Origin: Fimbriimonadaceae bacterium
GTDB taxonomy: Bacteria; Armatimonadota; Fimbriimonadia; Fimbriimonadales; Fimbriimonadaceae
Assembly (NCBI GenBank): GCA_023957775.1
Contig: JAMLGR010000013.1
Location: 1 to 64,000 of the forward strand
Direction of reading: 5' to 3'
Length of the DNA stretch: 64,000 nt
A model generated the notes under the pieces. The model worked only from the letters and a program-made list of their open reading frames with translations, had not been told where the DNA came from and searched no databases. Positions 30,902 to 49,255 of the stretch are shown here, piece by piece. Position numbers and translations under genes: made by a program. Positions within the stretch are counted from its first letter, which is position 1. Every line of letters begins with the position of its first letter.

Positions 30902-30994
30902 CCCTCACCGGCACCCTCACCAGCACCCTCACCAGCACCCTCACCAGCACCCTCACCAGCACCCTCACCAGCACCCTCACCAGCACCTCACCAG
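30900..30994. repeat. 12-bp tandem repeat (CACCCTCACCAG)n
   Basis: Eight head-to-tail copies of CACCCTCACCAG (the first reads CGG at its end, the last lacks one base) follow directly on the hairpin repeat. They lie between two genes of the minus strand. The lack of spacers excludes a CRISPR array. Confidence 0.9.
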
Positions 30995-32443: not shown

Positions 32444-32513
32444 CTACTCGTTGTCACCTCATTTGGAATTCTGGACCTCAGCTCAGCCCCCTAGTATGTC
32501 CCGCGTCATACGC

Positions 32514-34089: not shown

Positions 34090-34105
34090 TATGATTCGGA
34101 TCATA
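34090..34105. promoter_or_regulatory. Crp/Fnr-type operator palindrome, copy 1
   Basis: TATGATTCGGATCATA has perfect six-base arms (TATGAT/ATCATA) around a four-base centre, the geometry of Crp/Fnr-family sites (Fnr: TTGAT-N4-ATCAA). It lies between the divergent NarK-type gene and a small basic protein gene. A TACACT hexamer sits about 20 bases from it toward the transporter. Confidence 0.7.
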
Positions 34106-34148
34106 AGGGGTGGGTAATTGGACAGGTGGGATCCGACGTAGAAAAGGT

Positions 34149-34343
34149 ATGGCACACAAAGACCGCAAGAAGAAGGGTGGCGAGCGGAAAGAGAAGAAGA
34201 CCGCCCGGATGCGTTCCGAAGTCGAGAGTCGCAAGGAGCACGCCGGCGGTCCCAAACCCACGCACGATCAACCCGACATCCAGACCTTCAAGCCCGGCCA
34301 TGCCTCGGACGACACTACGCGGCCGCAGAACCGACCACGCTAG
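34149..34343 (+). CDS. Small, highly charged basic protein
   Basis: This 64-residue protein is mostly Lys, Arg, Glu and His (MAHKDRKKKGGERKEKKTAR) and is predicted to be disordered. No family is recognised. An AAAAGG sequence lies just upstream, and the operator palindrome at 34090 is 44 bases from the start codon, so it may share the nitrate regulon. Coding status is moderately likely. Confidence 0.5.
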   Translation: MAHKDRKKKGGERKEKKTARMRSEVESRKEHAGGPKPTHDQPDIQTFKPGHASDDTTRPQNRPR

Positions 34344-34346
34344 TGG

Positions 34347-34913
34347 TTAGTTGCCGAACTTCTCGATCCTAGCTCGGAACGAACCGCGGAAGACCGTTTT
34401 GTGCTCTTTGCTAAGCTGGAGGTCGATCACTCCGGCGATCCAACCGTTGCTGGCCTTGCCGAACCGGAGCGTCGCGGCGATGTTGTCGCCGACCATCGCC
34501 GTGTCGCTCGAACCCCCACGCTTCACCGTGGCAAACACGCCGGTGATCCCGCGGGCGACGGACCCCCGTCCAGGTCGGTAGTGCTGCTTGCGGTACGCCT
34601 CGGTCCCGAACTCCACGGGCCTGCAGTCGAGGCGAAGGTTGTCGAGCGGCTGCCCGACGTCGACCGCAAACCACACTTGGATCGTGTTGTCGGCCATGAA
34701 CACATCGCGGTCCTTGAATTCGAGCAAGTACGCTTGCGCCCTGTCTTCGACTTTGCCGGCCACCTTGACCGAGTTGAGGCCCAGGACACGCAGTTCCGCC
34801 GCCGCGGCCTTGAACGGCTGGCCTCGCAGCGTGCCGGCAGCCGGGGGCGAGTCGGACGGGGCCGCGCCGGAGGCGAGAACGGCGAGAGCCAGGACCCAAG
34901 TGAATGAGCTCAT
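34347..34913 (-). CDS. Secreted protein of unknown function
   Basis: This 188-residue protein has a signal peptide (MSSFTWVLALAVLASGAAP) and a beta-rich body (LRVLGLNSVKVAGKVEDRAQ, YLLEFKDRDVFMADNTIQVWF, LDCRPVEFGTEAYRKQHY, NGWIAGVIDLQLSKEHKTVF). I do not recognise the family. It ends three bases from the convergent small basic gene, and its 5' side abuts a REP-like repeat region. Confidence 0.7.
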   Translation of the reverse strand: MSSFTWVLALAVLASGAAPSDSPPAAGTLRGQPFKAAAAELRVLGLNSVKVAGKVEDRAQAYLLEFKDRDVFMADNTIQVWFAVDVGQPLDNLRLDCRPVEFGTEAYRKQHYRPGRGSVARGITGVFATVKRGGSSDTAMVGDNIAATLRFGKASNGWIAGVIDLQLSKEHKTVFRGSFRARIEKFGN

Positions 34914-35001
34914 ACTCCAATAATGGAGACCCGGGGTCAGGGCCTCACCAGTCGTTCATACAGGTCTGGTCTCCGTGGGCCTGCGTGCTCGCCGCAAGCG
35001 G

Positions 35002-35027
35002 CTCACGCCCGTCCAGCGGGCGTGGCA
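35002..35027. repeat. 26-bp hairpin repeat, copy 3
   Basis: CTCACGCCCGTCCAGCGGGC followed by GTGGCA is the third copy of the hairpin repeat described at 30876. It stands at the edge of the REP-like tandem. Confidence 0.7.
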
Positions 35028-35047
35028 TCCACTCCCACGTCGTCGAC

Positions 35048-35310
35048 TCACCCCTGGGAGTGCGCGCGCTTGCGCGTCGCCATTCACCGCCGGACTTTGT
35101 CCGGCCTCGGTGCCCTGCGCGCTCGCCGCAAGCGGCTCGGGTTCAGGGCGGCGAGCAAGCTCGCGCACTCCCACGTCGCCGTTCACCCCTGGGAGTGCGC
35201 GCGCTTGCGCGCCGCCTTTCACCGCCGGACTTGTCCGGCCCCGGCGCCCGGCGTGCTCGCCGCAAGCGGCTCGGGTTCAGGGCGACGAGCAAGCTCGCGC
35301 ACTCCCACAG
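35048..35310. repeat. Two tandem REP-like palindromic elements
   Basis: Two units of about 130 and 120 bases each begin with GGGAGTGCGCGCGCTTGCGC and end with GAGCAAGCTCGCGCACTCCC, so each unit can fold end to end. Each carries an inner stem (GCCGGACTTTGTCCGGC in the first, CCGGACTTGTCCGG in the second) and the shared block CTCGCCGCAAGCGGCTCGGG. Together with the sequence at 34914-35047 they fill the 305-base gap before the cytochrome b stop codon. The second unit forms the last codons of the cytochrome b gene. Confidence 0.8.
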
Positions 35311-36445
35311 TCGGTTCGTGGGGCGGTGGGGTCTCCAGGATCCCCTTCAGCGTGAACAAGCCGATCAGGAGGATGACGGCCATCCCGGCGTGGATGATCC
35401 ACTGTCGCATCGCGGGGTGGCGCGAGTCCGAACGGTCGATCCACGGCAGGAACAGCATCCCGATCGTCACCAACCCCGGCACGATCAGCGTCGCCACGAC
35501 CTCCCATCCCGCAGGCATGACCTTCAGCAGCTCGTACAGGCCGAGGAAGTACCACTCCGGTCGGGGCGCGAAGTCCGTGCCGGTGGGATCGGCGATCCCC
35601 TCGATCGCAGGCGGAAATGCGAGCGCCAGATACACCAGCAACCCCATGCCCGCAAGCACCACGGCCGCATCGCGGAAGAGCTGGACGGGGAAGAACGCCA
35701 CTCGCGGTCCCTTCTGCGGAAGCACGGGACCCGCGATGTGCAGGCGCCTCACCAGATAGAGGTGAATCGCCACCAGCGCCACCAACGAGACCGGTAGCAC
35801 CATCACGTGCAGCGCGTAGAAGCGCGTCAGGGTGAGCGATCCCACCTCCTGGCCGCCGCGGATCAGCACCAGCAGCTGGTTGCCGATGATCGGGATCGTG
35901 CCCGCGATGCGCGTGCCCACCACGGTCGCCCAGTATGCCTTCTGGTCCCACGGCAGCAAGTAGCCGGTGAACGAGAATCCGAGGATGACCTGGAAGATCA
36001 GCACGCCCACCAGCCACGTCAGCTCGCGCGGCTTCTTGTACGAACCCCAGAAGAATACGCGCAGGATGTGCAGCACCGTGGCGATGACGATCAGCGTCGA
36101 TCCCCACACGTGGAGGCCGCGCACCACAGCCCCCAGAGGCGCTTCCTGCGTGATGTGCTTCACGCTGTCGTACGCCGCCTGCGGCGCCGCCGCGTAGTAC
36201 ATCGCCAGCGCAACGCCCGTGATGAACTGGAACATCAGCAGCGTGAGCAACAGGTTGCCCAGGGTTTGCCACCAGCCCACGCCGGGAGGCATCGGCTCGT
36301 CGAGGTTCTTGCGGACAAAGCCCCACCAACCGAGCCGAAGGTCGGTCCAGTCTTTGAAACTCGGCCGCGTGACGATCTGCTCCTCCTCGGGGGTGAGGGG
36401 CGCTTGATCGACCGGCCGTTCGGGGGTCAGGGTTCGTTTGGACAT
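35219..36445 (-). CDS. Cytochrome b (fused b6/subunit IV type) of a Rieske/cytochrome b complex
   Basis: This 408-residue protein has both halves of cytochrome b. Haem-ligand His pairs lie in HVWGSTLIVIATVLH and HVMVLPVSLVALVAIH, and a PEWYFLGLYELL block marks the quinol-oxidation site. It should oxidise quinol together with the Rieske protein encoded two bases upstream. About the last 30 residues (from GVRELARRPEPEPLAAS on) are encoded by a REP-like element, so the C-terminus is not native. It is the last gene of a four-gene minus-strand operon. Confidence 0.92.
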   Translation of the reverse strand: MSKRTLTPERPVDQAPLTPEEEQIVTRPSFKDWTDLRLGWWGFVRKNLDEPMPPGVGWWQTLGNLLLTLLMFQFITGVALAMYYAAAPQAAYDSVKHITQEAPLGAVVRGLHVWGSTLIVIATVLHILRVFFWGSYKKPRELTWLVGVLIFQVILGFSFTGYLLPWDQKAYWATVVGTRIAGTIPIIGNQLLVLIRGGQEVGSLTLTRFYALHVMVLPVSLVALVAIHLYLVRRLHIAGPVLPQKGPRVAFFPVQLFRDAAVVLAGMGLLVYLALAFPPAIEGIADPTGTDFAPRPEWYFLGLYELLKVMPAGWEVVATLIVPGLVTIGMLFLPWIDRSDSRHPAMRQWIIHAGMAVILLIGLFTLKGILETPPPHEPTVGVRELARRPEPEPLAASTPGAGAGQVRR

Positions 36446-36446
36446 C

Positions 36447-36953
36447 TCACACGCTCCGGAACACTTCGATCTTGCCGCCCTTGATGCGGACGGGATGTCG
36501 CTCGAGGGCCTTGGGCGGGGGGCCCGACACGACGCGGCCCTCCGCGTCGAACACGCCGCCGTGGCACGGGCAGAAGTAGCGCATCTTCGCGTCTTGGAAC
36601 TTCACGCGGCAACCGAGGTGCGTGCAGGCCGGGTCGATCGCCACGACCTGATCGGGGTGGCGGTACAGATACAGCACGTACTGCCGGTCGACCGTCTGGT
36701 AGCCGTCCTTGATCGGGATCGCGAAGCGCACTTCGCGCGTTTGCCCCACGGCGAGCGCTCCGTCGTCCAGTACGGGGACCCAAACGCCCTTCGCCTTTCG
36801 GCGCAACGGACCGCCGACGAGGCCCATCACGGGGCCCACCACGGTGAAGAAGACCACCGCGTTGATCACCCCGATGAGCCACGCGAGGACCTTGCGCCGC
36901 GTGGGCGGGACGGGTTCGACTGGAAGCGATTCGAGAGCAGGAGTATCAGCCAT
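36447..36953 (-). CDS. Rieske [2Fe-2S] subunit of the cytochrome b complex (QcrA-like)
   Basis: This 168-residue protein has a TRRK twin-arginine start followed by one transmembrane helix (LIGVINAVVFFTVVGPVMGL) and a Rieske domain. The ligands are Cys110/His112 (CTHLGC) and Cys128/His131 (CPCHGG). It is followed after one base by cytochrome b, the normal pairing, and is preceded by the cytochrome c/NarI-like fusion. It probably passes electrons from quinol to the c-type haem. Confidence 0.92.
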   Translation of the reverse strand: MADTPALESLPVEPVPPTRRKVLAWLIGVINAVVFFTVVGPVMGLVGGPLRRKAKGVWVPVLDDGALAVGQTREVRFAIPIKDGYQTVDRQYVLYLYRHPDQVVAIDPACTHLGCRVKFQDAKMRYFCPCHGGVFDAEGRVVSGPPPKALERHPVRIKGGKIEVFRSV

Positions 36954-36968
36954 GGTTGTGCGTTCCCA

Positions 36969-38102
36969 TTAGGGGTAGTAGCGAAGCGTGGTGGGTCCTT
37001 CGTAGTCGGGGTCGATCGCCTTCAGCACGCCAAGGGCGATGCGCTCGGATTTGTGGTGCCGGCCCGGCGCAGGTTCCCGCTCGAAGCCGAGGTTCACGCC
37101 CGAAGCCGTGACGGCCTCGGTGACGCGGGTCATCGCGACCAGCGCCGGAACGACCCACGCGTGGGCGAACCGGGTGAAGGGCGCGGTGGCGATCAGAAGC
37201 GTGATCGAGCCGAGGTGGTAGAGGTAGACGGGCATGACCCAACCCGACTGGCCGCTTCGGTTGATGATCACCGTGAGGAACCCGCTGACCACCGTGTGGA
37301 CGAGAAGGTTGACGAAAAGGAAATCGCGCCCCAGGGTCAGTCCGTTGTCGATGTAGGGGTCCGTCCGGTAGCGGAACAGCACGTAGAACACGCCGGTCAT
37401 GACGGCGATGCCGGAGACGATGGGCAGGATCTTCAGCGGGTCCAGCAGCGACAGGTCGCCGCGCGTCGGGTTGAAGATCTGCATCAGGATGTCCGCGAGC
37501 ATCAAACCCAGGAACCCGTAGAGGATCAGGCCGTGCATGAACCATCGGAAGCGGTTCTTCCTGAAGAGCGAGGCGACGCACAGCCCGTCCACGACCAGCG
37601 AGCGCAGCGCGATCCCCGTGGCCCGGAGGCGCCCGAACTTCTTCACGTACGGCGAGAGGTTCTTCCATCCCGCGCAGCCGAGCCAGTAGACCAACACGCG
37701 GACGCCGAAGATGAACGCGAACAGGAAGACGGCGAGGAACAGGTGCGTCACCGAGTGTGTGCTCAGCATCCGGCCGACGGTGTAGGAGAGCGGAATCTGC
37801 GACTCGATCCACGGCATCTTCTGCACTTCGTCGTGCAGCGCCTTCACGTCGGCGTCGGGCAGCTCGGTGGCGGGGGTCGCGGGCATCATGCCCTTGCCCT
37901 TGCGGACCGTGTCGAGGAACTCCTCGTAGGTGAGTTTCGTGGTGGCCAGGGGCGGTCCCAAGCCGCCCATGGCGGTTACCCCGTGGCATCCGACGCACGT
38001 CGCCGTGGAGTACACCTCGGACTCGTGGGCCTGCTGGGCGGGCCCTTGGGCGATGGCAACCGACGACGCGAGAACCGCGAACCAGACAACGAACTGCTTC
38101 AC
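36969..38102 (-). CDS. Cytochrome c - NarI-like membrane fusion protein
   Basis: This 377-residue protein begins at a GTG overlapping the ferredoxin stop codon. A signal segment (FVVWFAVLASSVAIAQ) is followed by a single c-type haem motif, Cys36-Val-Gly-Cys39-His40, with a candidate Met ligand in GMMPATPAT. From about residue 105 there are five or more helices with His residues, as in NarI/cytochrome b membrane anchors (STHSVTHLFLAVFLFAFIFG, RWFMHGLILYGFLGLM). The fusion puts a periplasmic c-haem onto a membrane b-type subunit. It could connect the bc-type proteins below to the NarGH-like proteins above. Confidence 0.85.
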   Translation of the reverse strand: MKQFVVWFAVLASSVAIAQGPAQQAHESEVYSTATCVGCHGVTAMGGLGPPLATTKLTYEEFLDTVRKGKGMMPATPATELPDADVKALHDEVQKMPWIESQIPLSYTVGRMLSTHSVTHLFLAVFLFAFIFGVRVLVYWLGCAGWKNLSPYVKKFGRLRATGIALRSLVVDGLCVASLFRKNRFRWFMHGLILYGFLGLMLADILMQIFNPTRGDLSLLDPLKILPIVSGIAVMTGVFYVLFRYRTDPYIDNGLTLGRDFLFVNLLVHTVVSGFLTVIINRSGQSGWVMPVYLYHLGSITLLIATAPFTRFAHAWVVPALVAMTRVTEAVTASGVNLGFEREPAPGRHHKSERIALGVLKAIDPDYEGPTTLRYYP

Positions 38103-38791
38103 GCCTGCTCCTCCTTGCCGCCGGGAACGGGCGCCGGCGCGCCGAGTGTCGAAGTCTGCTGGTGGGCCATGGGACCGAGGTAGCACCCCGCGGGCTTCGT
38201 CTTCGCCTCGGGAAGCAGGTGGAACGGCTCGCGTTTGGTCGCCACCTTCTGCTCCTCGATGTAGGTGGAGATCTCGCTTTCGCGGTCTTCGAGGTCTCCG
38301 AAGATGCGCGCCTTGGTGGGGCACGCCACGACGCACGCGGGGTCGAGGCCGACGTCCACGCGCTGCGCGCAGTAGGTGCACTTCCGGGCCACGTTCTCGT
38401 TGAGCCGGGGCTTCACGTGGTCGCGCTCGTACGACTCGTCCTCGTTCAAGTACCACTTGTCGCGGGGGATCAGCATGACGTTGCCGTAGGGGCACGCGGA
38501 GACGCACGCGCCGGTTCCCCGGCACCGCTCCTGGTCGATGAGGACGATCCCGTCTTCGCGCCGGATGATCGCCTTGTTGGGGCACGACTTGAGGCAAGGC
38601 GCATCGTCGCAGTGGTTGCACAGCACGGGGATGTACAGCCGCTTGACGTTGGGATACGTCCCCGATTCGACGTTCAGCACGCGTGCGAAGAACACGTCCA
38701 CCGGTGTGCCGTTCTCCTGCTTGCAGGCCAGCGTGCACGCATCGCAGCCGATACAGCGCGTGAGGTCGATGAGCATCGAGAGTCTTGCCAT
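38099..38791 (-). CDS. NarH-like iron-sulfur subunit with one altered cluster motif
   Basis: This 230-residue protein has four cluster motifs: Cys13/16/19/23, Cys58/61/66/70, Cys90/96/100 and Cys138/141/153/157. In the third motif (CRGTGACVSAC) the second Cys is replaced by Thr93. NarH has Trp at this place (CRGW...C) and carries a [3Fe-4S] cluster there, so the same is expected here. This marks it as the beta subunit of a NarG-class enzyme rather than a PsrB-type ferredoxin. It heads the operon that continues with the cytochrome c fusion, Rieske and cytochrome b. Confidence 0.88.
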   Translation of the reverse strand: MARLSMLIDLTRCIGCDACTLACKQENGTPVDVFFARVLNVESGTYPNVKRLYIPVLCNHCDDAPCLKSCPNKAIIRREDGIVLIDQERCRGTGACVSACPYGNVMLIPRDKWYLNEDESYERDHVKPRLNENVARKCTYCAQRVDVGLDPACVVACPTKARIFGDLEDRESEISTYIEEQKVATKREPFHLLPEAKTKPAGCYLGPMAHQQTSTLGAPAPVPGGKEEQA

Positions 38792-38838
38792 GGTTGGTGA
38801 TCCCTGGCTGGATTCTCGCGCGCCGTGAGGGGCCCGCA

Positions 38839-38854
38839 TATGATTCGGATCATA
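38839..38854. promoter_or_regulatory. Crp/Fnr-type operator palindrome, copy 2
   Basis: TATGATTCGGATCATA is identical to the copy at 34090. It lies 47 bases upstream of the NarH-like start. A GAGAAT hexamer at 38812-38817 on the minus strand is where a -10 element would fall if the site is centred at about -41.5. Confidence 0.72.
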
Positions 38855-38891
38855 AGGGCCGAAACGGGCGAAACTGGGAGACAATGGGGGC

Positions 38892-39785
38892 ATGGCCGAG
38901 TTCGTCTCGCGGGTTTCGGAGAAGCTGTTCCTTCGGTTCTTCCAGTGGTTGCTTTTCGCGACGTTCGTCGGCGTCGGTTTCGGGTGGCTTGCCGGAGGGA
39001 AGGAGCTTTCCTTGGCCAATCGGCTCGCGACCGAGGGCGTGCGCGTCCAGGGAGCGGTGACCGAGACCAGCGCCGGCGACTACCTCAACGCCCCGACGGT
39101 GCGTTACCGGTATGTGGTGAACGGCGAGACGCTCTACGGTTACTCGCACACCGACCCCGAGAAGGTGGTGACCTACGCCCCCGGCGACCCCGTGGAGGTG
39201 ACGTACCTCCCGTCCGATCCCGGCGAATCGGGAACCGATCTGGTAGCGATGCAGAACTCGGGCAACGCGGGCCTTTTCCGAACGGTGTTGATCGAAGCCG
39301 TCGTGGCCTTGTTCTTTTGGGGGCCGGTCGTGTTCAGCAAGCTGGCGATCGGGAAGCTGAACTTCCCGGTGGGCAACTTCCTTGTGGGCATGGTGATCAC
39401 CGGCCTGATGTTTCTGGTTGGCGTGGGGGTGCTGTTTGGAAGCGCCGTGCCCCAACTGAAGCGCGCCGAGGCCCTTGCCGACCACGCCGAGGTGGTGGAC
39501 GCCCAGATCACGGGTGTGTACGATGGGGAGCACGGAAGGTACGCAGACTACGCCTACACCGTCGGAGGGAAGCACTACTCCGGCGAGGCGCCCTACGGCG
39601 GGGGATACGGCGATCGGGGCACCCTCCGCATCCGCTACCTGCCCTCGGAACCGGGCTACTCGTCCATGTCGCCCTTCGACGAGCTGTCGAACGCCAAGCA
39701 GGGTGTGGCGTTCATGAGCGTGTGGACCCTGCTCGCGCTGGGGTTCACCGTGGCCATCTACATCGCGGGCAGACGCACGCTCTAA
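38892..39785 (+). CDS. DUF3592-like membrane protein with two extracytoplasmic beta units
   Basis: This 297-residue protein has about four hydrophobic helices and two similar beta units: VQGAVTETSAGDYLNAPTVR with VVTYAPGDPVEVTYLPSDPG, and VVDAQITGVYDGEHGRYADY with GTLRIRYLPSEPGYS. Such pairs are typical of DUF3592. Function unknown. It is encoded between the two minus-strand halves of the NarG-like module and starts 37 bases from the operator palindrome, so it may belong to the same regulon. Its last codon overlaps the NarG-like stop on the other strand. Confidence 0.75.
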   Translation: MAEFVSRVSEKLFLRFFQWLLFATFVGVGFGWLAGGKELSLANRLATEGVRVQGAVTETSAGDYLNAPTVRYRYVVNGETLYGYSHTDPEKVVTYAPGDPVEVTYLPSDPGESGTDLVAMQNSGNAGLFRTVLIEAVVALFFWGPVVFSKLAIGKLNFPVGNFLVGMVITGLMFLVGVGVLFGSAVPQLKRAEALADHAEVVDAQITGVYDGEHGRYADYAYTVGGKHYSGEAPYGGGYGDRGTLRIRYLPSEPGYSSMSPFDELSNAKQGVAFMSVWTLLALGFTVAIYIAGRRTL

Positions 39786-42235
39786 GGTCTCACGCCTGAG
39801 GCGCAGAGGCGCACGTCCACCCGTGTGTCTTTCCAGTGCTGCCCGGGGGCGTAGACGGCCGGCAGATAGTAGTTCTCGTGCGTCGCCTTCACCTTCTGGT
39901 GCGTGTGGACGCTGTGGTACTTGCCGCCGCCGAGGTAGCGGTCCCACCAACCGTGATCCACGCACAGAACGCCGGGCTTGATCGCCTCGGTGACGAGCGC
40001 CCACACCTTGTACGCGCCGTTCTCGTTGAAGATCTCGACCGGATCGCCGTCCGCGATGCCCCGGGCCGCGGCGTCTCGCGGGTTGATCTCCACCACGGGC
40101 TTGCGGTTCACGTTCAGGAGGAGGGGGTTGTTGCTGTGCGTCGAGTGCACGCGCCACTTCGAGTGCGGCGTCACGATCGCGAGGGGCATGCGCTGGTCGT
40201 GCTCGGGCAGGTGTTCGAACGCGGGTTTGAAGATCGGGAGCGTCTCGCCCAGCTTTTGGAAGACATCCTCCTCTTTGTAAAACTCCATGCGGCCCGTCTT
40301 GAGGAACTCGCGCTGGGCCCCCTCGGGGAACGGGTAGGCGCGCGGAGGGAAGAGGTGGTGGTCGGCGAACTGCTCGTCGCACCCCACTTCGGGGTCGGGC
40401 ACGTCGAGGCGCACAGGCCCCGCCTTGAGCTGCTCGACCGTGATGCCGGCGACCTCCTTGCCGCCGCCGTCCAGCATCATCTGGATCGCGTCGAACTCGT
40501 CGCACTCGAAGTACTTGAGGAGCGTCGGATCGACGCGGCGCAGAAGCTCCCGAACCATCCACATTTCGGTGCGGCTGTCGTACCGCGGGCTCAGCACCTC
40601 CTGCTGGATCTGGAGGTACGGGTGGCAACTGGTCCCCACAAGCTCGACCTTCTCCCAGAACGTCGGGGCGGGGAACACCACGTCGCTGTACTCGCACGTG
40701 GGGGTCATTGAGAAGTCGATGGTCACGAACAGGTCGAGCGCGTCGATCGAGCGTTTGATCGGGTCGCTGAACTCGGTCACCAACGGATTCCCGTGGGAGA
40801 CGAAGAGGCCCTTGAATCCCGACTTCGGGTACTTGATCTTGGGGTTCGCCGTTTCCGAGGGCTGGCCCATGACGAAGTAGTGCATCGGCACCGCGTTGGG
40901 GCGTTTGCCATCGGGGAACCACCAGGGACTCACATCGAGCCGGAAGTGGTGCTGGCCGGAGTAGATCGAAACCGATTCGCCGGGCTTTCCGTGCGCGCCG
41001 ACCAGCGCGGACAGAAGCAGGATCGAGCGGATGGCGAGGTCGCCGTGCAGTCGGTGGTTGACCCCCATCCCGATGATGATCGAGGAGGGGCGCTGTGTCG
41101 CGTAGTCGCGGGCCAACTTGCGGATCGTCTCGGCGGGCACGTCCGTGATCGTCGCGACGTGCTCCGGCTCGTACTCGGGGCGCATCACCGTGTCCTCGAT
41201 GAGCTGGAAGACCGGCGTCACCGCCACCTCCTCGCCCGCGATCTTCACGTGCCGCGTGCCTCGCACGGCCAGGCGGACCGTGGCGGGCAGTTTAAGCGTG
41301 TCCATGGGAAGGACGAACGGCGCGTCCGCAAGCTCGTCCCACGCCACGAACTCGGCGTCCGTGCCAAGGCCGAGATCGCACGCCCGCAGCCGTCTGCCGT
41401 TGTCCTGGCGGATCAGCGTTGGGAAGTCGGTGAACGTGCGCAGGAACTCCCAGTCCGCGAGGTCGTCCGCGAGAACGACGTGGCACATCGCGAGCGCGAG
41501 GGCACCGTCCGTCCCGGGGTGGATGGGGATCCAGAGGTCGGCCCCCTTCGCGGTTTGGCTGCATCGCGGGTCGATGCACACGATCTGCGCGTTGTTCCGC
41601 TGCTTGGCGTATTGGGTGAGAAATTTGGCGTCGGGGATGCGGGTCTGGAAGACGTTGCTGGACCAGAGAATCGCGGTCTTTGCGTGGCCCCAGCTCTTGG
41701 TTTCGCACTCAACACAGTCGATCCCCATGGTGTGGGTGAATCCCATCGAGATGTCGCCGTTGAAGTCGTAGGCCGTCGCGAAGGTCATGCCGAGGAGGGA
41801 CGCCATCCGGACCTGCGCGCCCTTTTGGACGTAGCCGGTCGCCACGACTTGGTTGAACAGCAGCAGGCTCTCCGGACCGTGTTCGTCGATGATGGTGCGC
41901 ATCTTCTCCGCCACGTAGTCGAGCGCCTCGTCCCAGGACGCTTTGCGCCACTTGCCCTCGCCGCGCTCGCCGGTGCGGATCAGTGGCGTCTTGACTCGGT
42001 CGGGGCCGTAGATGAGGTGGGTCATCGACATCCCGCGCAGGCAGCCTCGCGGGTTGTACTCGGCGCACGGGTAGTCCGCGGCGGGTTTGAGGTCCACGAT
42101 CGTGTCGTCGACCACGGTGGCCAGCCATCCGCACGCCCCGGTGCAGTTCGGACTGTCCGTCGTGCGAACCACGCGCGCTTCACCCTTGGGGGCTGTGCCC
42201 TGGTTCCGGCCGGGTACCGCATGCCTTGTCGCCAT
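39782..42235 (-). CDS. NarG-like molybdopterin oxidoreductase (Asp-ligated type) catalytic subunit
   Basis: This 817-residue protein is a bis-MGD enzyme. The N-terminal cluster block DSPNCTGACGW parallels NarG (HxxxCxxxC) with Asp27 in the His position, then Cys31, Cys35 and Cys65 (RGCLRG). The block YDFNGDISMG aligns with the region where NarG/NxrA-class enzymes have an Asp molybdenum ligand, making Asp161 the candidate; there is no Cys there. C-terminal cofactor blocks include HSKWRVHSTHSNNPLL. No Tat signal is seen, which fits a cytoplasmic NarG-like subunit. AGGAGGA nine bases upstream fixes the start. Nitrate is the likely substrate, but the class also reduces chlorate, selenate and other anions. 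Confidence 0.85.
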   Translation of the reverse strand: MATRHAVPGRNQGTAPKGEARVVRTTDSPNCTGACGWLATVVDDTIVDLKPAADYPCAEYNPRGCLRGMSMTHLIYGPDRVKTPLIRTGERGEGKWRKASWDEALDYVAEKMRTIIDEHGPESLLLFNQVVATGYVQKGAQVRMASLLGMTFATAYDFNGDISMGFTHTMGIDCVECETKSWGHAKTAILWSSNVFQTRIPDAKFLTQYAKQRNNAQIVCIDPRCSQTAKGADLWIPIHPGTDGALALAMCHVVLADDLADWEFLRTFTDFPTLIRQDNGRRLRACDLGLGTDAEFVAWDELADAPFVLPMDTLKLPATVRLAVRGTRHVKIAGEEVAVTPVFQLIEDTVMRPEYEPEHVATITDVPAETIRKLARDYATQRPSSIIIGMGVNHRLHGDLAIRSILLLSALVGAHGKPGESVSIYSGQHHFRLDVSPWWFPDGKRPNAVPMHYFVMGQPSETANPKIKYPKSGFKGLFVSHGNPLVTEFSDPIKRSIDALDLFVTIDFSMTPTCEYSDVVFPAPTFWEKVELVGTSCHPYLQIQQEVLSPRYDSRTEMWMVRELLRRVDPTLLKYFECDEFDAIQMMLDGGGKEVAGITVEQLKAGPVRLDVPDPEVGCDEQFADHHLFPPRAYPFPEGAQREFLKTGRMEFYKEEDVFQKLGETLPIFKPAFEHLPEHDQRMPLAIVTPHSKWRVHSTHSNNPLLLNVNRKPVVEINPRDAAARGIADGDPVEIFNENGAYKVWALVTEAIKPGVLCVDHGWWDRYLGGGKYHSVHTHQKVKATHENYYLPAVYAPGQHWKDTRVDVRLCASGVRP

Positions 42236-42274
42236 CTTGAATCCTCCTCGACGCGCCCAATGGGGCTCAGGGGG

Positions 42275-42317
42275 ATTGTCCGGCGGCATTTGGCTGCGAA
42301 CTATGATCGGGATCATA
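42275..42317 (-). promoter_or_regulatory. Crp/Fnr-type operator (copy 3) with a correctly spaced -10 hexamer
   Basis: The palindrome TATGATCGGGATCATA spans 42302-42317. On the minus strand a GACAAT hexamer lies at 42275-42280. A start site near 42268 would put the palindrome at about -41.5 and GACAAT at -12 to -7, the layout of a class II Crp/Fnr-activated promoter for the NarG-like gene. The NnrS-like gene diverges from the same site. Confidence 0.7.
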
Positions 42318-42390
42318 GGCATAAGCACCCTCTGAAACGCATCCTCAGAGCGTGGACGGTTCCGTGCGCACTCGACTCGTGCCTCTTCCC

Positions 42391-43704
42391 ATGCGGGGCA
42401 CCACCGTCGAAAGGGAAGGGAACACCGGGATCGCGATCTACCGGCCCTTCTTCGCCGCGGGCATCCTGTGTGTGCTGACGGCCGGGTGCACGCTGGGCGC
42501 GGTCGCGCTGCTGGGAATCGCCCAGGCCGGATCGTACACGAAGAGTGGTTGGACCCCCTGGGTTCTGGCCCACGCCAACTCCCAGCTTTACGGTTGGATC
42601 GGGCTGTTTGTGATGGGTTTTGCCCTCCAGCAGCATGCGCCGAGCCCCGAGAAGCGGAGGCTGTTCAGCGTCTTGGCCATGGTTGCGTTGACGGGAGCCC
42701 TCGTTGGCATCGCACTTCGTTTCGCGGCAGAACCCATGGCGGCCATGCGCCATCCGTTGGGCGTGCCGCTCGGACTCGCCTCGGCTTGGATCCAGGCGCT
42801 GGCCGTGCTCGCCTTCGTGGTCAACCTCACGTGGACGCGGGAGCGCAAGGGCGAGGCTCTCCACTGGTCGTCGACCTTCATCTTCACGTCGCTCTTCTGG
42901 CTGCTGGTCGTGGCCCTTGTCGAACCGTTCGTGTTTGCGGCGTCCCACGGTTCGGGGGCCGTTGCCTTCGTCGCGAAGTGGTTCCAGCCGTACCGTGAGG
43001 CCCAGTTCTTGGGGTTTGTGGCGCAGATGGTGTTCGGGGTGGCGATGACGAAGTTCCACTCGTGTTTCGCCATGCGGCCCGCGGCTCGGACTCAAGGGCT
43101 CGTCGCTTGGGGGCTCTGGAACGCGGGGCTGCTGGTGCGCTCGTTCGGGTGGATGGCCTACGAGCGCGGGGGATTCGTGGCCGGTTCGGGGACGGCGTAC
43201 TTCCTCGGGGGCGTGCTGCTTGCGTTCGGCGCCGTGACCGCCGCGCTCTCGCTCGGGGTGTTCGAGGTTCCCCGTGTCCGGTTGGGCGGGCACCGCTTCC
43301 TTCGAGGCGCCTTTGGGTGGCTGCTTGTCTCGGGGGCCCTCCTCTGTCTCGAACCGCTTCATCTGGCCGTTCTGGGGATTCCGTTCTCCCATGCGTACAC
43401 GGGGGCGGTCCGACACGCCGTGACCGTGGGATTCCTCTCCCAGATGGTGCTGGGGGTGGGAACGCACGTTGCAGCCCGCATGCGAGGGATCGACGATGTT
43501 CGTTTGCCATCCCTGGTGGCAGTCTTCTGGCTCCTGAATCTGGGCAACGCGGCGCGCGTGGCGCTGGAGATCGGGACGGACTTCAACGCGGGGGCGTTCG
43601 CTCCCATGGGAATGACCGGATTCGTCGAGCTGTCCGCCTTGGCGATCTGGGCGTATCAGATGGCGAGACTCCTCTCGCCGACCAAGGTGGCTTATGTCGC
43701 ATAG
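42391..43704 (+). CDS. NnrS-like polytopic haem/NO-response membrane protein
   Basis: This 437-residue protein has about twelve hydrophobic helices and resembles NnrS-family proteins, which are linked to nitric oxide stress in denitrifiers. His-containing blocks are HANSQLYGWIGLFVMGFALQQH near the start and HAVTVGFLSQMVLGVGTHV near the end. An upstream GTG at 42352 would add 13 residues, but the ATG at 42391 leaves room for a promoter driven by the palindrome at 42302. The Crp/Fnr gene begins 11 bases before its end. Confidence 0.72.
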   Translation: MRGTTVEREGNTGIAIYRPFFAAGILCVLTAGCTLGAVALLGIAQAGSYTKSGWTPWVLAHANSQLYGWIGLFVMGFALQQHAPSPEKRRLFSVLAMVALTGALVGIALRFAAEPMAAMRHPLGVPLGLASAWIQALAVLAFVVNLTWTRERKGEALHWSSTFIFTSLFWLLVVALVEPFVFAASHGSGAVAFVAKWFQPYREAQFLGFVAQMVFGVAMTKFHSCFAMRPAARTQGLVAWGLWNAGLLVRSFGWMAYERGGFVAGSGTAYFLGGVLLAFGAVTAALSLGVFEVPRVRLGGHRFLRGAFGWLLVSGALLCLEPLHLAVLGIPFSHAYTGAVRHAVTVGFLSQMVLGVGTHVAARMRGIDDVRLPSLVAVFWLLNLGNAARVALEIGTDFNAGAFAPMGMTGFVELSALAIWAYQMARLLSPTKVAYVA

Positions 43705-44413
43705 CTTGATTGCCGATGTCCCCGAACGTCCGACCAACATTGCGGTGTTGGAGGCGTGCAGCCTGCTCAACGCGGTCGACGAGGAGTCTCGTCAGGTCCT
43801 TGCGGGCGAGTCGTTTATGGCGTACGCCGAGCGCGGAGAGGCCATCTGGATCGCCGGGGCGCCCTCGGTGTTCACGGGCATCGTCGGGGTCGGGTTCGTG
43901 AAGATGGCGAAGTCGAGCGCCGCCGGCATGGACGTCGCCGTGGAGTTGCTGGGACCGGGTCAGTGCTTCGGCCTGATGGCCGCGTTGGAGGGACGGCCGT
44001 TCCCGCTCAGCGCGATCGCGGTGAGCAACACGTGGTACCTGAAGGTGCCGACCCGCGCCCTCATCCCGGTGTACCAGGCGTGCGGACCGTTCAAGGACCA
44101 ACTGCTCCGAACCCTCACGCCTCGCCTGCGGCGCGCCCACGACATGATGGGGCGGCTCTCCTCGGGGCGGGTGGAGGAGCGGCTGGCCGCCGTGTTGCTG
44201 CTGCTCGCGGACAGCTATGGGCGGCGCGGGGATGGCGGCGTGGAGCTCGCCGTACCGTTGACGCGGCAGGATTTGGCGGAGATGGCGGGAACGACGGTGG
44301 AGACGACCATCCGCATCATGAGCCGGTGGCAGAAGGAGGGCATCGTCACCACGGAGAGCCGCCGCATCACGGTACGCGACGAGGAGCAACTCGCCGCCAC
44401 CCTGCACGCATGA
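43694..44413 (+). CDS. Crp/Fnr family transcriptional regulator, paralogue 1
   Basis: This 239-residue protein has a cyclic-nucleotide-binding-type beta barrel (about residues 25-140), a dimer helix, and a winged HTH. The recognition helix reads TTVETTIRIMSRW, close to the Fnr pattern TVETISR, which binds TTGAT-type half-sites. The Fnr N-terminal cysteine cluster is missing, so oxygen sensing by [4Fe-4S] is unlikely; a haem/NO sensor of the Dnr/NnrR kind is possible. It overlaps the NnrS-like gene by 11 bases. It is a candidate reader of the four palindromes in this region. Confidence 0.88.
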   Translation: MSHSLIADVPERPTNIAVLEACSLLNAVDEESRQVLAGESFMAYAERGEAIWIAGAPSVFTGIVGVGFVKMAKSSAAGMDVAVELLGPGQCFGLMAALEGRPFPLSAIAVSNTWYLKVPTRALIPVYQACGPFKDQLLRTLTPRLRRAHDMMGRLSSGRVEERLAAVLLLLADSYGRRGDGGVELAVPLTRQDLAEMAGTTVETTIRIMSRWQKEGIVTTESRRITVRDEEQLAATLHA

Positions 44414-44445
44414 CAGCCGAGGAATCCGGTGTACTGCCAGAGGGG

Positions 44446-44973
44446 TTAGGGGAGGTCGGCGGGGGTGTTGGCGCCTCGGATCCACTCCGGTTCGAAGCCT
44501 GTTTCCACCTGGGCGATGGACAGCGTGTCCACCCACCGCATGACGGCCTGGACATCGGCGAACCGAGGCTCGCGGAGCCGGGCCAACGCGCCTTCGGTGT
44601 AGAGCGCGCAGAGCGGTTGCAAGCGCCCTTCCAGAGCCGGGATGGCAGCGTCATGGCCCCCGAGCTGCGCCTGGAGGAACTCCACGATCCTGGGATCAAA
44701 ACGCGGCATGTCGCACGCGGCGACGAAGACGGCGGGCTCGGTGGAGCGGAACGCGCGCAGCGCCGCGAGCGGCCCCCCGAACGCCTGCGCATCGGCGAGG
44801 AACGGAAACCCCTCGAGGGGCTCGCGGCCAAGCACCGTGACCGGTATTCCGGCATCACGAAGGGATTGCGCGATGCGCAAACCCATCGGCGTCCCCGCCA
44901 CCGGAAGGCTCGCCTTGTCCCGGCCCATCCGTCGGCTCGCACCCCCGGTCAAAACCACCGCCTCGATCGCCAC
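44446..44973 (-). CDS. mobA: Molybdenum cofactor guanylyltransferase
   Basis: This 175-residue protein has the MobA nucleotide-binding start VVLTGGASRRMGRDKASLPV and the metal-binding block FVAACDMPRFDP. It adds GMP to molybdopterin to make the MGD cofactor needed by both molybdoenzymes in this block. The GTG at 44973 was chosen because the frame upstream is repeat-derived. It is slightly shorter than the usual 190-200 residues. Confidence 0.85.
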   Translation of the reverse strand: MAIEAVVLTGGASRRMGRDKASLPVAGTPMGLRIAQSLRDAGIPVTVLGREPLEGFPFLADAQAFGGPLAALRAFRSTEPAVFVAACDMPRFDPRIVEFLQAQLGGHDAAIPALEGRLQPLCALYTEGALARLREPRFADVQAVMRWVDTLSIAQVETGFEPEWIRGANTPADLP

Positions 44974-44995
44974 TCCAAACAACCTACCCCGGGCA

Positions 44996-45138
44996 ATCCC
45001 CCCTCCGCGCCTCCCCGTCTCTGTGTGAAAATCCCCCTTTGCGCACTTTGCGTCCCTTGCGTGAAACACCCCCCCCTTCGCGCCCTTAGCGTCCTTTGCG
45101 TGAAACACCCCCCCCCCCCTTGCGTGAAACTCCCCCCC
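44996..45138. repeat. CTTTGCGTGAAAC-family repeat cluster
   Basis: Several degenerate copies of CTTTGCGTGAAACACCCCCC follow each other (CTTTGCGCACTTTGCGTCCC, CCTTAGCGTCCTTTGCGTGA, CTTGCGTGAAACTCCCCCCC). They occupy the divergent region between mobA and the carboxymuconolactone decarboxylase-like gene. Similar sequence lies at about 31020-31120 and 53503-53530. Confidence 0.75.
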
Positions 45139-45160
45139 AGGTTCCGCCTATCATAAGCCC

Positions 45161-45478
45161 ATGAACAAGATTCCCTCACGGTTCTTGAGATTCGTCGAGC
45201 GGCACCCCAAGGTCGGGGAGGCCTACAACGCCCTTGGCGAGGCCGTCGCCGAGGCGGGGCCGCTGGAGCGCAAGACGCAGGCGTTGGTGAAACTCGGGAT
45301 CGCGCTTGGCGCGCGCATGGAGGGCGCGGTCCACAGCCACGTGCGCAAGGCGCTCGAAGCCGGGGCGACGCCCGACGAGGTACGGCATGCCGCGATCCTG
45401 GCCACGACGACCGTGGGTTTCCCGAACATGATGGCAGGCCTCTCGTGGGTGGACGACGTCCTCGAGCCCAAGGAGTGA
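45161..45478 (+). CDS. Carboxymuconolactone decarboxylase/AhpD-like family protein
   Basis: This 105-residue protein matches the small CMD fold (LERKTQALVKLGIALGARM, EGAVHSHVRKALEAGATPDE, ILATTTVGFPNMM). The CxxC pair of AhpD peroxidase-reductases is absent: the corresponding stretch is EGAVHSH. It is therefore probably not a thiol oxidoreductase. It opens a three-gene run with two membrane proteins. Confidence 0.85.
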   Translation: MNKIPSRFLRFVERHPKVGEAYNALGEAVAEAGPLERKTQALVKLGIALGARMEGAVHSHVRKALEAGATPDEVRHAAILATTTVGFPNMMAGLSWVDDVLEPKE

Positions 45479-45485
45479 ACGCCGG

Positions 45486-45872
45486 ATGACCGGCCGCGTC
45501 CCGGCGTGGACAGGGTGGTACCTCGTGGCCCAAGCCGCGGCGACCGCGCTGTGGTGGGTGTGGATGTTCGGCGCGCCTGAAGCGCGCGCCATCTTCTTCG
45601 CGGACGACTCCTACGAACTGCTGCGCCGGTTCGCGATCCCGGATCTGCTCGTGTTCGGAGGAGGGTCTCTGCTTGCCGGGGGCCTCGTTCTTCGCTCGCA
45701 TCCCGCCGCGAAGGTGGCCGCCTGGTTTACACTGGGCGCGGCCACCTATGCGACCCTGGGCGCCCTCGCCGCGAACTGGCCGATCGGCACGAAGCCGGTG
45801 GCCGACGTCGCGATGGCCTTGACCGTCGGCGGAACCGCGTGGGTGGTGCGCGTGTTGGGGAGGGTTTCGTGA
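45486..45872 (+). CDS. Four-helix membrane protein of unknown function
   Basis: This 128-residue protein has about four hydrophobic segments (WYLVAQAAATALWWVWMFG, LLVFGGGSLLAGGLVL, AAWFTLGAATYATLGALA, VAMALTVGGTAWVV). I do not recognise a family. It starts seven bases after the CMD-like gene, and the next gene's GTG overlaps its stop. Confidence 0.7.
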   Translation: MTGRVPAWTGWYLVAQAAATALWWVWMFGAPEARAIFFADDSYELLRRFAIPDLLVFGGGSLLAGGLVLRSHPAAKVAAWFTLGAATYATLGALAANWPIGTKPVADVAMALTVGGTAWVVRVLGRVS

Positions 45873-46477
45873 GCTTCGACCCGATGCGGTTCTTCCGGCC
45901 GGCGCGCGATGACTCGATTCGGCGCAACGCCGTCTGCACGTTCTTGCAGACGGCGTTCATGTGGGGGATCTTCCTCGCCGTGCTGCCCGCAGGCGTGCTC
46001 GAACTCCAAGAGGCGCTTGGCATCCCGCGCTTCGAACCCGGCCCATGGGCTTGGGCGGCCTTCGCGCTCTTCTGGCTTGCCGGGCTCACGGGAATCTACT
46101 GCGGCAGCCTCTTCGTCCGTTTCGGCGCCGGCACGCCCTTTCCGCTCGACGAGACGACGCGGCTCGTCATCGCGGGTCCCTACCGTTGGGTGAGGAATCC
46201 GATGGCGATCCTCGGCATCTTCCAGGGCGTGATGGTCGGCGTGTGGCTCGGCTCCTGGCCCGTCGTCATGTACGCAGTGTGCGGGGTGTTCGCCTGGCAC
46301 ATGCTTGCGCGCCCCTTCGAGGAGCGCGATCTCGAACGGCGGTTTGGCGCCGAGTTCACCGAGTATCGGGACGCCGTGCGCAACTGGATCCCATCCGCGA
46401 GACCGTATCGGAAGGTCATGGGCGCACGCGAGCCGGGGCTGTCCCAAGCTGAAGGACCCGTCGCCGATGCACGTTGA
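45869..46477 (+). CDS. Isoprenylcysteine carboxyl methyltransferase/NnrU-like membrane methyltransferase
   Basis: This 202-residue membrane protein has the PEMT/ICMT signature: GPYRWVRNPMAILGIFQGVM, then FEERDLERRFGAEFTEYRDAV. In this family these motifs bind S-adenosylmethionine and a lipid or prenyl substrate. The substrate is unknown here. The GTG start overlaps the upstream stop. Its 3' end overlaps the convergent cupin gene by 62 bases, which is unusually long. Confidence 0.82.
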   Translation: MSFDPMRFFRPARDDSIRRNAVCTFLQTAFMWGIFLAVLPAGVLELQEALGIPRFEPGPWAWAAFALFWLAGLTGIYCGSLFVRFGAGTPFPLDETTRLVIAGPYRWVRNPMAILGIFQGVMVGVWLGSWPVVMYAVCGVFAWHMLARPFEERDLERRFGAEFTEYRDAVRNWIPSARPYRKVMGAREPGLSQAEGPVADAR

Positions 46478-46766
46478 GGTAGGCGAAGCGCGAAGACGTG
46501 GCGGCAATGCGCCGGCGCGCGCCCTTGGGGATCACGAGCAGTTGGCCCGCTGCAAGCGAGTGTTCTGCGCCATCGATCTCCACCAATCCCTCGCCCTCGA
46601 TCCCGATCATGGCCACGTCGAGAAGGTCGTTGACGTGTTCGGGCGCGCCCCCTCCCTGCGGCCAACTGACGAGGGTGAGGTTGAGATCCTCGCCGTCGCA
46701 CCCCCACTGGGCGCCGCCTCCGGACGCCGCGGCCAGGATCTTGAGTAGGTCGACGGGCGGGTTCAC
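46416..46766 (-). CDS. Small cupin domain protein
   Basis: This 116-residue protein is a single cupin barrel ([68 protein letters not shown]). Candidate metal ligands are His and Glu in the first motif; the second His is not obvious. Its GTG start overlaps the Rieske stop codon, and GGAGG lies ten bases upstream, so it is co-translated with the Rieske protein. Role unknown. Confidence 0.78.
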
Positions 46767-47227
46767 CGGAGGGAGCCTCCTTCGCGCAAACCGATCGCCC
46801 AGACGTCGCCGTTCCGGACTTCGACGACCACGCGTGGGAGCGGATCGGGCGGGGGTCCTTCGACGACCTCGCCCGTATCGGCGTCGTAGGCGCCGCCGTG
46901 GCAGGGACACTCGATGCGGTGGGATTTTGCGTTCCATCCGACCGTGCACCCGAGGTGGGTGCACGTTCGGGAGTACGCCCGCAACTCGCCCTGCTCGGTG
47001 CGGAGGAGCAGACACGCGTCTTGCGCGCGCGGATAGGCGAAGGCGACCGAGTTGTTGGGCGGCAACTCCTCCAGCGCGCAGATGCGCTTGGGCTGCAGAA
47101 GGCGCGCGACGCGGCGGAACAGTTCCCAGGGCCCGACGCCGGACCATCCGCCCGCCGCCACCGCGCCGCACGAGAGTCTGCGCAGGATCTCGCGTCGGGT
47201 GGTTTCGGCATCGCTCGGATCGCACAT
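46763..47227 (-). CDS. Third Rieske [2Fe-2S] protein, Tat-type N-terminus
   Basis: This 154-residue protein has a [20 protein letters not shown] Tat-like start and a Rieske domain with CTHLGC and CPCHGG ligand boxes. A GTG at 47248 would add seven residues. It has no cytochrome b next to it and is coupled to a cupin gene instead. The palindrome at 47253-47268 lies just upstream, though the spacing fits the divergent porin gene better. Confidence 0.85.
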
Positions 47228-47252
47228 TGCGGTGCCATTGTCCCACACCCGA

Positions 47253-47268
47253 TATGACCTGGATCATG
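47253..47268 (+). promoter_or_regulatory. Crp/Fnr-type operator palindrome, copy 4 (degenerate)
   Basis: TATGACCTGGATCATG keeps ten of the twelve arm positions of TATGAT-N4-ATCATA. A start site near 47302, at -41.5 spacing, would leave a 29-base leader before the porin gene with its GGAAGGAGGAG ribosome-binding site. Confidence 0.6.
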
Positions 47269-47330
47269 GAGCGGCCCGACACGCGGGGCGACCATGGGTT
47301 CGAAGTCCCGCAAGGGAAGGAGGAGTTCGC

Positions 47331-48544: not shown

Positions 48545-49255
48545 ATGCTAGACCCGATCCAGCAGCCCACGATCGAGAGCGTCCTGCACTCGAGCACGCT
48601 GCTCAACTCCCTGACGGCCGAGGAGATGCAGACCCTCGCGCGAAACTCGCGCATGGCGCGGGCAGCGCGCGGGGAGGCGGTTTGGCTGCACGGGTCGGAG
48701 GTCGAGTTTTTCGGGCTGGTCTCCCTAGGGTTCGTGAAGATGGTGAAGGGCTCTGCCAGCGGACACGACGCCGCGCTCGAGATCATGGGCCCGGGCCAGA
48801 TTTTCGGCATGATGGGCACCATCGAGGGCGTCGGCTGTCCGCTCACCGCGATCGCGGTCACGGAGCTGAGCTATCTCAAGATTCCCAAGACGACCTTCGG
48901 GCCGATCTACGAGGCGAACCACGCGTTCAAGGACCGCTTGATCCGGCGAAGTTCGATCCGCCTGCACGACAAGATGAACCTCCTCGCCCGGCTCTCCAGC
49001 GGTCGTGTCGAGCAGCGCATGGCCACGATCCTGTTCATGCTCACCGACTCGTACGGCGAGGAAACGCCCGCCGGCGTGCGGCTGCAGGTCCCGCTCACCC
49101 GCCAGGACCTGGCCGAACTCGCCGGGACTTCGACCGAAACGGCCATCCGCGTGATGAGCCGTTGGCAGAAGGAGGGCGTGGTGGCCACCGAAAGCCACAT
49201 CATCACGCTCCTCGACACCGACGCCCTCCAAGAAGTCCTCGACCACTCAGGGTGA
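48545..49255 (+). CDS. Crp/Fnr family transcriptional regulator, paralogue 2
   Basis: This 236-residue protein is a close paralogue of the regulator at 43694 across its full length (shared blocks EIMGPGQIFGMMGTIEG/ELLGPGQCFGLMAALEG and RLSSGRVEQR/RLSSGRVEER). The recognition helix reads TSTETAIRVMSRW. It also lacks the Fnr cysteine cluster. TACAAT lies at 48530-48535, ten bases before the start codon, suggesting a very short leader. It follows the porin gene by 38 bases. Confidence 0.88.
   Translation: MLDPIQQPTIESVLHSSTLLNSLTAEEMQTLARNSRMARAARGEAVWLHGSEVEFFGLVSLGFVKMVKGSASGHDAALEIMGPGQIFGMMGTIEGVGCPLTAIAVTELSYLKIPKTTFGPIYEANHAFKDRLIRRSSIRLHDKMNLLARLSSGRVEQRMATILFMLTDSYGEETPAGVRLQVPLTRQDLAELAGTSTETAIRVMSRWQKEGVVATESHIITLLDTDALQEVLDHSG

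Follow-up and report, generated by a model that had tools for sequence, protein, structure and literature searches.

The nitrate block of a 64,000-nucleotide stretch of DNA from Fimbriimonadaceae bacterium (GenBank assembly GCA_023957775.1, contig JAMLGR010000013.1, positions 1 to 64,000; hereafter the window) contains palindromes with the half-site TATGAY, which are very probably operators of a Crp/Fnr activator controlling genes of nitrate and N-oxide respiration through class II activation. A Crp/Fnr nitrate regulon at this place had already been proposed in the initial annotation, and the proposal is supported here, as the presence of sites follows that of a Crp/Fnr gene and as the sites of relatives lie before nitrate, molybdenum-cofactor and N-oxide genes. 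The motif, its conservation, its link to the regulator and the positions of the -10 hexamer and of the start codon are read directly from sequence. In the proposed mechanism, one or both of the proteins encoded at 43694 and 48545 would bind the palindromes as a dimer centred at about -41.5 from the transcription start, which would recruit RNA polymerase to a -10-like hexamer, xANNNT, at -12 to -7. We infer such binding by the regulators, and activation rather than repression. Targets in the genome of the window would be the NarG-like and NarH-like genes, two NarK transporters and a porin, to which relatives would add a NasC-like reductase, MoaA-like and MobA-like proteins, an NrfH-like cytochrome and a truncated globin; in some relatives, the regulators themselves would also be targets. 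As signal, nitrate, nitrite or nitric oxide under low oxygen is probable.

Scanning the window for TATGATN4ATCATA with up to two mismatches returned exactly four matches, those at 34090, 38839 and 42302 with none and that at 47253 with two. Among 100 dinucleotide shuffles of the window, the mean was 0.25 matches and the maximum 2, so that none reached four. These are the four palindromes originally reported, including the identical pair at 34090 and 38839. The accompanying remark that none occurs elsewhere in the window holds for this pattern and mismatch limit, while a fifth, weaker site was overlooked: TATGTCCCGCGTCATA at 32495..32510, one mismatch from the relaxed consensus TATGAYN4RTCATA and upstream of NarK2. 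This relaxed form replaces the strict TATGAT consensus, which was rejected since relatives carry TATGAY with RTCATA (consensus TATGAY-N4-RTCATA). All four original palindromes had been placed in divergent gaps, a description that applies to 34090 only if a weakly scored open reading frame of 64 amino acids (34149-34343, forward strand) is a gene; the site at 32495 lies in a tandem gap, not a divergent one. As had also been pointed out, the half-site TATGAT is unlike both TTGAT of Fnr and TGTGA of Crp, and the sites matched neither.

Each window site can be paired with a predicted target gene by means of a -10-like hexamer. The palindrome TATGATCGGGATCATA (42302..42317) is the probable operator of the NarG-like gene (39782..42235, reverse strand), with GACAAT (42280-42275) beginning 22 bases after it, a predicted +1 at 42268 and the ATG at 42235. 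Likewise, TATGATTCGGATCATA at 38839..38854 probably serves the NarH-like gene (38099..38791, reverse strand), where GAGAAT (38817-38812) begins after 22 bases, followed by a predicted +1 at 38805 and the ATG at 38791. The second copy of TATGATTCGGATCATA, at 34090..34105, is the probable operator of NarK1 (32586..34055, reverse strand); here TACACT (34069-34064) begins after 21 bases, one base nearer than usual, and the GTG start at 34055 is at distance 35 from the site. For the two sites with one mismatch to the relaxed consensus, the probable target of 32495 is NarK2 (31097..32443, reverse strand; CAGAAT at 32473-32468, predicted +1 at 32461, ATG at 32443) and that of TATGACCTGGATCATG (47253..47268) is the porin gene (47331..48506, forward strand; GACCAT at 47290-47295, predicted +1 at 47302, ATG at 47331), both with the hexamer beginning at 22. 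Hence, four of the five window sites have a hexamer at 22 (GACAAT, GAGAAT, CAGAAT and GACCAT) and NarK1 has one at 21, which bears out the earlier placing of GACAAT, GAGAAT and TACACT where a class II promoter needs them. Two further neighbours were considered and rejected as targets: the NnrS-like gene at 42391 for the 42302 site and the Rieske gene for the 47253 site, as neither side shows a -10-like hexamer at 22. The NnrS label itself rests on a weak Pfam match (18.3 bits vs a cutoff of 28).

The names of the target genes derive from profile and domain matches of differing strength. The NarG-like protein (817 amino acids) is a molybdopterin oxidoreductase similar to dimethyl sulfoxide (DMSO) reductase type II, far below the curated cutoffs for both NarG (260.9 vs 1084.15 bits) and DMSO reductase type II (464 vs 984.75 bits); nitrate is a putative substrate of this DMSO-reductase-type molybdoenzyme. 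The NarH-like protein is a 4Fe-4S protein. Both transporters are MFS transporters of the NarK kind matching MFS_1, and with TIGR00886 (cutoff 311.7 bits) NarK1 stays below the cutoff at 189 bits and NarK2 just below it at 305.1 bits. The porin belongs to the Alginate_exp family (PF13372, 1.3e-33).

The genome-wide scan suggested along with the initial annotation covered 3,508,767 bases in 27 contigs. With up to two mismatches, TATGATN4ATCATA gave 15 sites vs 5 for the reversed control. Exact matches amounted to three, all inside the nitrate block of the window, and the palindromes of relatives are mostly intergenic and precede nitrate, molybdenum-cofactor and N-oxide genes. The refuting outcome named with the initial annotation, a palindrome equally common inside genes or before unrelated genes, was thus not seen as far as it could be checked. 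Of the 11 matches outside the window (2 with one mismatch, 9 with two), C16:96138 and C6:58442 are intergenic, while the other 9 overlap a predicted gene or the start of one. The relaxed pattern with up to one mismatch gave nine sites in the genome vs one for its reversed form, namely the four known ones, 32495, C16:96138 (exact), C2:253232, C7:61883 and C19:43844. The last two overlap gene starts, and xANNNT at 22 is absent in both. C16:96138 lies 128 bases from a nitronate-monooxygenase-like gene (Pfam PF03060, matched on a homologue); on the gene side, xANNNT is absent at 22 and GAGAAT begins at 23. The one-mismatch site C2:253232 is found 77 bases upstream of a small gene that contains CxxCH and precedes a 4Fe-4S gene, and the hexamer xANNNT was not found there at 22, the class II place.

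The two Crp/Fnr genes noticed earlier in the same block encode proteins that both exceed Pfam cutoffs, with a cNMP-binding-like domain and a Crp-type helix-turn-helix. Regulator 1 (43694..44413, forward strand; HTH_Crp_2 1.6e-20, cNMP_binding 3.4e-11) carries the recognition helix GTTVETTIRIMSRWQKE, and regulator 2 (48545..49255, forward strand), 51% identical to it, carries GTSTETAIRVMSRWQKE. The predicted structure of regulator 1 is a normal Crp fold (predicted local distance difference test score, pLDDT, 91.7), the nearest folds being GlxR (4byy, E 2.5e-21) and CRP of Mycobacterium tuberculosis; the DNR structure 3dkw matches at E 1.3e-7 only. Neither window regulator reaches the NCBIfam cutoff for FNR (PRK11161, 228 bits; 61.5 and 45.3 bits) or for CRP (266 bits; 22.3 bits for regulator 1 and 38.8 bits for regulator 2). 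Aligned with the helix of Aliivibrio fischeri FNR, GLTVETISRLLGRFQK, the helix of regulator 1 retains Val-Glu and Arg, while the Ser before the Arg is replaced by Ile and the Ile preceding that Ser by Thr. This Ile-Arg is invariant in all 26 aligned regulators, including two from a second bacterial class described below, and the pattern E-x-x-I-R occurs in 83 of 84 regulator homologues of the examined loci, the remaining one ending before the helix. No Cys is invariant or nearly invariant among the columns of the 26 aligned regulators, and therefore no FNR-type iron-sulphur cluster is expected. Ser212 of FNR contacts the half-site base that is T in FNR sites and A here. Since residues 180 and 181 are FNR-like in the present regulators (cf. 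the available part of PMC1274295), the Ile would account for the A in place of T.

Conservation was assessed in 113 genomes of the order, in which homologues of the NarG-like protein were sought at E 1e-50 and those of regulator 1 at E 1e-20. A NarG-like homologue is present in 32 of them. Thirty NarG-like loci were examined, 29 of which include sequence upstream of the gene, and in all 29 a site with at most one mismatch was found within 300 bases (20 exact; 0/29 for the reversed control), followed exactly 22 bases later by xANNNT in 22 of the 29. Exact TATGAYN4RTCATA occurs in 69 genomes and the regulator in 60. Sites were found in 58 of the 60 regulator-positive genomes (221 sites; reversed control 3) and in 11 of the 53 regulator-negative ones (15 sites; control 12), an association with a Fisher p of 2.8e-18, uncorrected for the relatedness of the genomes. 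As the N4 core and the Y/R positions differ between genomes, the site looks like an operator and not like a copied block. Among the 178 genomes of the phylum outside the order, a regulator homologue at E 1e-30 was found in three; these contain 2, 9 and 2 sites (control 1, 0 and 0), few of which show a clear class II pattern.

To study the anatomy of the putative promoters, 223 of the order's 236 exact sites, from 63 genomes, were examined together with their flanking sequence. For the intergenic count, 136 sites were kept and 87 dropped as the coding density of their locus was below 0.75; 116 of the 136 are wholly intergenic vs 17.0 expected by area. When frames of 100 codons or more were tallied by the distance of their start from the 223 sites, 39 ATG starts fell at 34 and 25 at 35, while no other distance between 1 and 120 exceeded 14. 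A start at distance 34 leaves 41.5 bases between the palindrome centre and the A of the ATG, which is the class II spacing provided that the start codon marks +1. On the 47 sides with ATG or GTG at 34, the base frequencies (-11 A 0.89, -7 T 0.83, -1 C or T 0.88) bring the start codon into register with a -10 element and a pyrimidine-purine start, and bases 2 to 18 after the site are little conserved. In total, 252 sides face a named gene family (57 genomes), and on 78 of these a candidate start lies at 34 or 35 (42 genomes, 12 families). The hexamer xANNNT begins at 21-23 on 73 of these 78 sides, on 130 of the 174 other family sides and on 21 of 116 opposite sides. Of the 78 candidate leaderless starts, 8 have a Shine-Dalgarno-like motif in front of them. 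In many relatives, a start codon coincides with the predicted +1 or follows it by one base, so that the messenger RNAs concerned are probably leaderless, and leaderless and leadered genes alike seem to share a single promoter geometry. By sequence, these regions show one of the features expected of a class II activated promoter, an operator followed by a -10-like hexamer at class II spacing. On the opposite sides of sites, xANNNT was also seen to begin at 20 instead of 22, in 21 of 116 cases. Furthermore, exact sites occur as tandem pairs 46-79 bases apart (G009:C20:9656/9702, G037:C1:426471/426536, G057:C1:71997/72052, G076:C13:163090/163137, G060:C115:3267/3321 and G074:C81:19902/19981), which possibly take a second activator dimer.

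Genes beside the sites in relatives were joined into families by BLAST, counting either side of a site, and NarG and NasC were thereby merged. Among the 22 clusters present in at least four genomes, 12 were named, 2 form a mutS-like pair and 8 (in 4-11 genomes) were omitted, resembling off-frame or antisense readings by eye. The most widespread families are NarG/NasC-like proteins (39 genomes), NarK (36), the porin (27), 4Fe-4S proteins (FeS/NarH; 25) and NnrS-like proteins (15), followed by CMD/AhpD-like proteins, MoaA-like radical SAM proteins and NapC/NirT-type (NrfH-like) cytochromes (13 each), MobA-like proteins (12), truncated globins (9), nitronate-monooxygenase-like proteins (8, the genome of the window among them), Crp/Fnr itself (6) and ResB-like proteins and pyridoxal decarboxylases (3 each). 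MoaA and NrfH are presumed names, both families also having Pfam domain hits. This gene set fits nitrate and nitrite respiration together with cofactor supply and protection against nitric oxide, and it is wider than nitrate, as it includes the NrfH-like cytochrome, the truncated globin and the MoaA-like, MobA-like and nitronate-monooxygenase-like proteins.

The same combination of site and regulator was encountered in a second, distant class. A scan of named genomes gave four loci, two of which were used: JAGNJW010000016.1 from a metagenome-assembled genome (MAG) labelled Acidobacteria and JAIEMQ010000006.1 from one labelled Cyanobacteria. As both genomes fell into one class set, one of the two labels is likely wrong. 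The former genome has three exact sites and the latter one (control 0). In the JAGNJW genome, an Alginate_exp porin gene has a site exactly 34 bases upstream of its ATG and CACCAT as -10 hexamer, and in the JAIEMQ genome a nos-propeller protein is encoded near the regulator. Regulator homologues at E 1e-25 occur in 82 of 193 genomes of this class. The 30 best-scoring regulator loci (105,169 bases, the two starting genomes included), picked by similarity of the regulator and not by the site, contain 26 sites, 11 of them exact and 15 with one mismatch (none of either kind for the reversed control), and 22 of the 26 are accompanied on one or both sides by xANNNT at exactly 22. FNR-type TTGAYN4RTCAA was not found in the 30 loci. 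The E-x-x-I-R helix is seen in 29 of the 30 regulators, the remaining one being missed by the search pattern. An exact site is present in 10 of the 30 loci, and several have no site at all. Neighbouring genes, named by eye, resemble RIC/ScdA, hemerythrin, radical SAM proteins and cytochrome c. Locus L339 of this class holds a homologue, 57-60% identical, of the nitronate-monooxygenase-like gene on C16; a gene of this kind adjoins a site both there and in locus L168 of the window's genome (G000:C16:94600-97600). We consider it somewhat better than an even bet that these proteins form a Crp/Fnr subfamily present in at least two phyla (the phylum count being a guess) with a DNA code of its own, in which Ile in place of the FNR Ser goes with A at half-site position 2 (TATGAY vs NTTGAT of the FNR type), and which controls nitrate and N-oxide respiration largely from class II promoters, many of them leaderless, where a single distance would set operator, +1 and start codon at once.

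FNR regulates anaerobic respiration and acts at class II promoters. The regulators described here share with FNR of Escherichia coli and A. fischeri the superfamily, the half-N4-half geometry and a similar recognition helix, whereas one base is changed per half-site (TTGAT vs TATGAY) and E-x-x-S-R is changed to E-x-x-I-R. FNR proper moreover has an N-terminal cysteine cluster for [4Fe-4S], while no conserved Cys was seen in the 26 regulators aligned here. The FNR site is given as TTGAT-N4-ATCAA in the available part of PMC5398030. With DNR, NnrR and HcpR, the present proteins would have in common that they control nitrate, nitrite and nitric oxide genes as Crp/Fnr regulators, and that motif shifts accompany shifts of the recognition helix. 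DNR and NnrR are nitric oxide sensors, marked by haem binding and a response to nitric oxide. Their motifs, however, as listed in the part of PMC1274295 at hand, are CTTGATnnnnATCAAG for DNR, ctTTGcgnnnncgCAAag for NnrR and wTGTGAnnnnnnTCACAw, wyTTGACnnnnGTCAArw and GTAACnnnnGTTAC for the HcpR type, none of which equals TATGAY. According to the same part of that paper, Crp/Fnr residues 180 and 181 go with site bases 3 and 6; in its numbering, both equal FNR in the regulators studied here, and the altered residue is the one before the helix Arg. An assignment of the sites to FNR, DNR, NnrR, HcpR or CRP was rejected, as the half-site is different. GlxR and M. tuberculosis CRP resemble the regulator 1 model in overall fold, while their recognition residues differ. 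Leaderless genes with TANNNT upstream of the start codon are described in PMC3160421, which, in its available part, reports an average of 13.3% of genes in three Acidobacteria. The -10 element lies about 12 bases before the start codon there as it does here, whereas here the predicted leaderless start is joined to a putative activator operator at a fixed distance, and activators are untreated in the available part of that paper. The term 'Armatimonad' is absent from its main text.

Several findings weigh against the palindromes being operators of this Crp/Fnr activator. Two genomes, G082 and G084, have a regulator with the same type of helix, yet no exact site, and sites occur in 11 of the 53 genomes in which no regulator was detected. 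An exact site shared by four genomes of one genus adjoins a frame of 732 amino acids which resembles MutS (G019:C1:329916, G020:C6:55302 and G022:C323:8081, all without detected regulator, and G033:C103:6410, regulator-positive), and this one conserved use of the palindrome, at least, has no tie to nitrate or to the regulators detected. In the 175 phylum genomes outside the order that gave no hit at E 1e-30, 100 sites were counted vs 62 controls. Finally, only NarK1 is near-leaderless in the window, the NarG, NarH, NarK2 and porin genes having short leaders. Beside the mutS-like frame, the same four sites also adjoin a membrane-protein-like frame of 130 amino acids. In seven genomes of the phylum outside the order (G168, G169, G188, G189, G190, G239 and G241), 4-6 exact sites each were observed together with no regulator hit at E 1e-30, and more distant regulators are perhaps behind them.

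The sites near mutS-like genes in three genomes lacking a detected regulator would suit a different palindrome-binding protein, not of the Crp/Fnr type, as owner of the sites, with the Crp/Fnr genes merely accompanying the nitrate genes; co-occurrence would then follow from common ancestry and common nitrate clusters. Such an owner is nonetheless improbable, given that Crp/Fnr operators have just this half-site length, spacing (N4) and class II geometry, that 26 of the 28 regulator-positive genomes without a NarG-like gene keep their sites (89 sites) and that the second class has sites near its regulators although the target genes are different. Equally small is the chance that a Crp/Fnr protein does bind but represses, for instance when N-oxides are absent: a site at -41.5 would also overlap the promoter, but the exact spacing to the -10 would then be unnecessary, and the poor conservation of bases 2 to 18 after the site leaves no room for a separate -35. 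That the palindromes are functionless, arising by chance or as copies of a duplicated or mobile block, could be suspected from the identity of the 34090 and 38839 sites over 16 bases, but is largely excluded by conservation and has next to no probability. When the 60-base flanks of the five window sites are compared with each other without gaps in either orientation, 9 to 27 of 60 positions are identical, about the level of unrelated GC-rich DNA, and the sites recur across genera with a varying N4 core and in largely intergenic positions (116 of 136 vs 17.0 expected). A repeat search on four short regions taken singly reported nothing, at settings that missed even the palindromes.

In the remainder of the block, genes for cytochrome b, Rieske and cytochrome c/b-type proteins lie between NarK1 and the NarH-like gene (35219-38102), and a bc-type complex may feed the NarG-like enzyme. 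Tandem repeats reading VLVRVLVRV or HPHQHPHQ, depending on the frame, were seen at 30825-30986, just upstream of a gene on the reverse strand (29777-30814).

Among the matches listed in the open-access literature, no publication was recognised as describing the motif, the palindrome letters in PMC5398030 being primers in the part available, and no description of the regulation of nitrate respiration in these groups was found there. While the general kind of system is known, new are the half-site with its matching recognition helix, the spread of this pair and the class II promoters anchored to the start codon. With motif and helix together, N-oxide regulons of such genomes can be sought by a ready-made rule, and the way in which Crp/Fnr proteins read DNA can be probed at a single residue. 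The constant distance from operator to start codon predicts transcription starts to the base from sequence, and the group is a natural system for studying the joint evolution of activators and leaderless translation.

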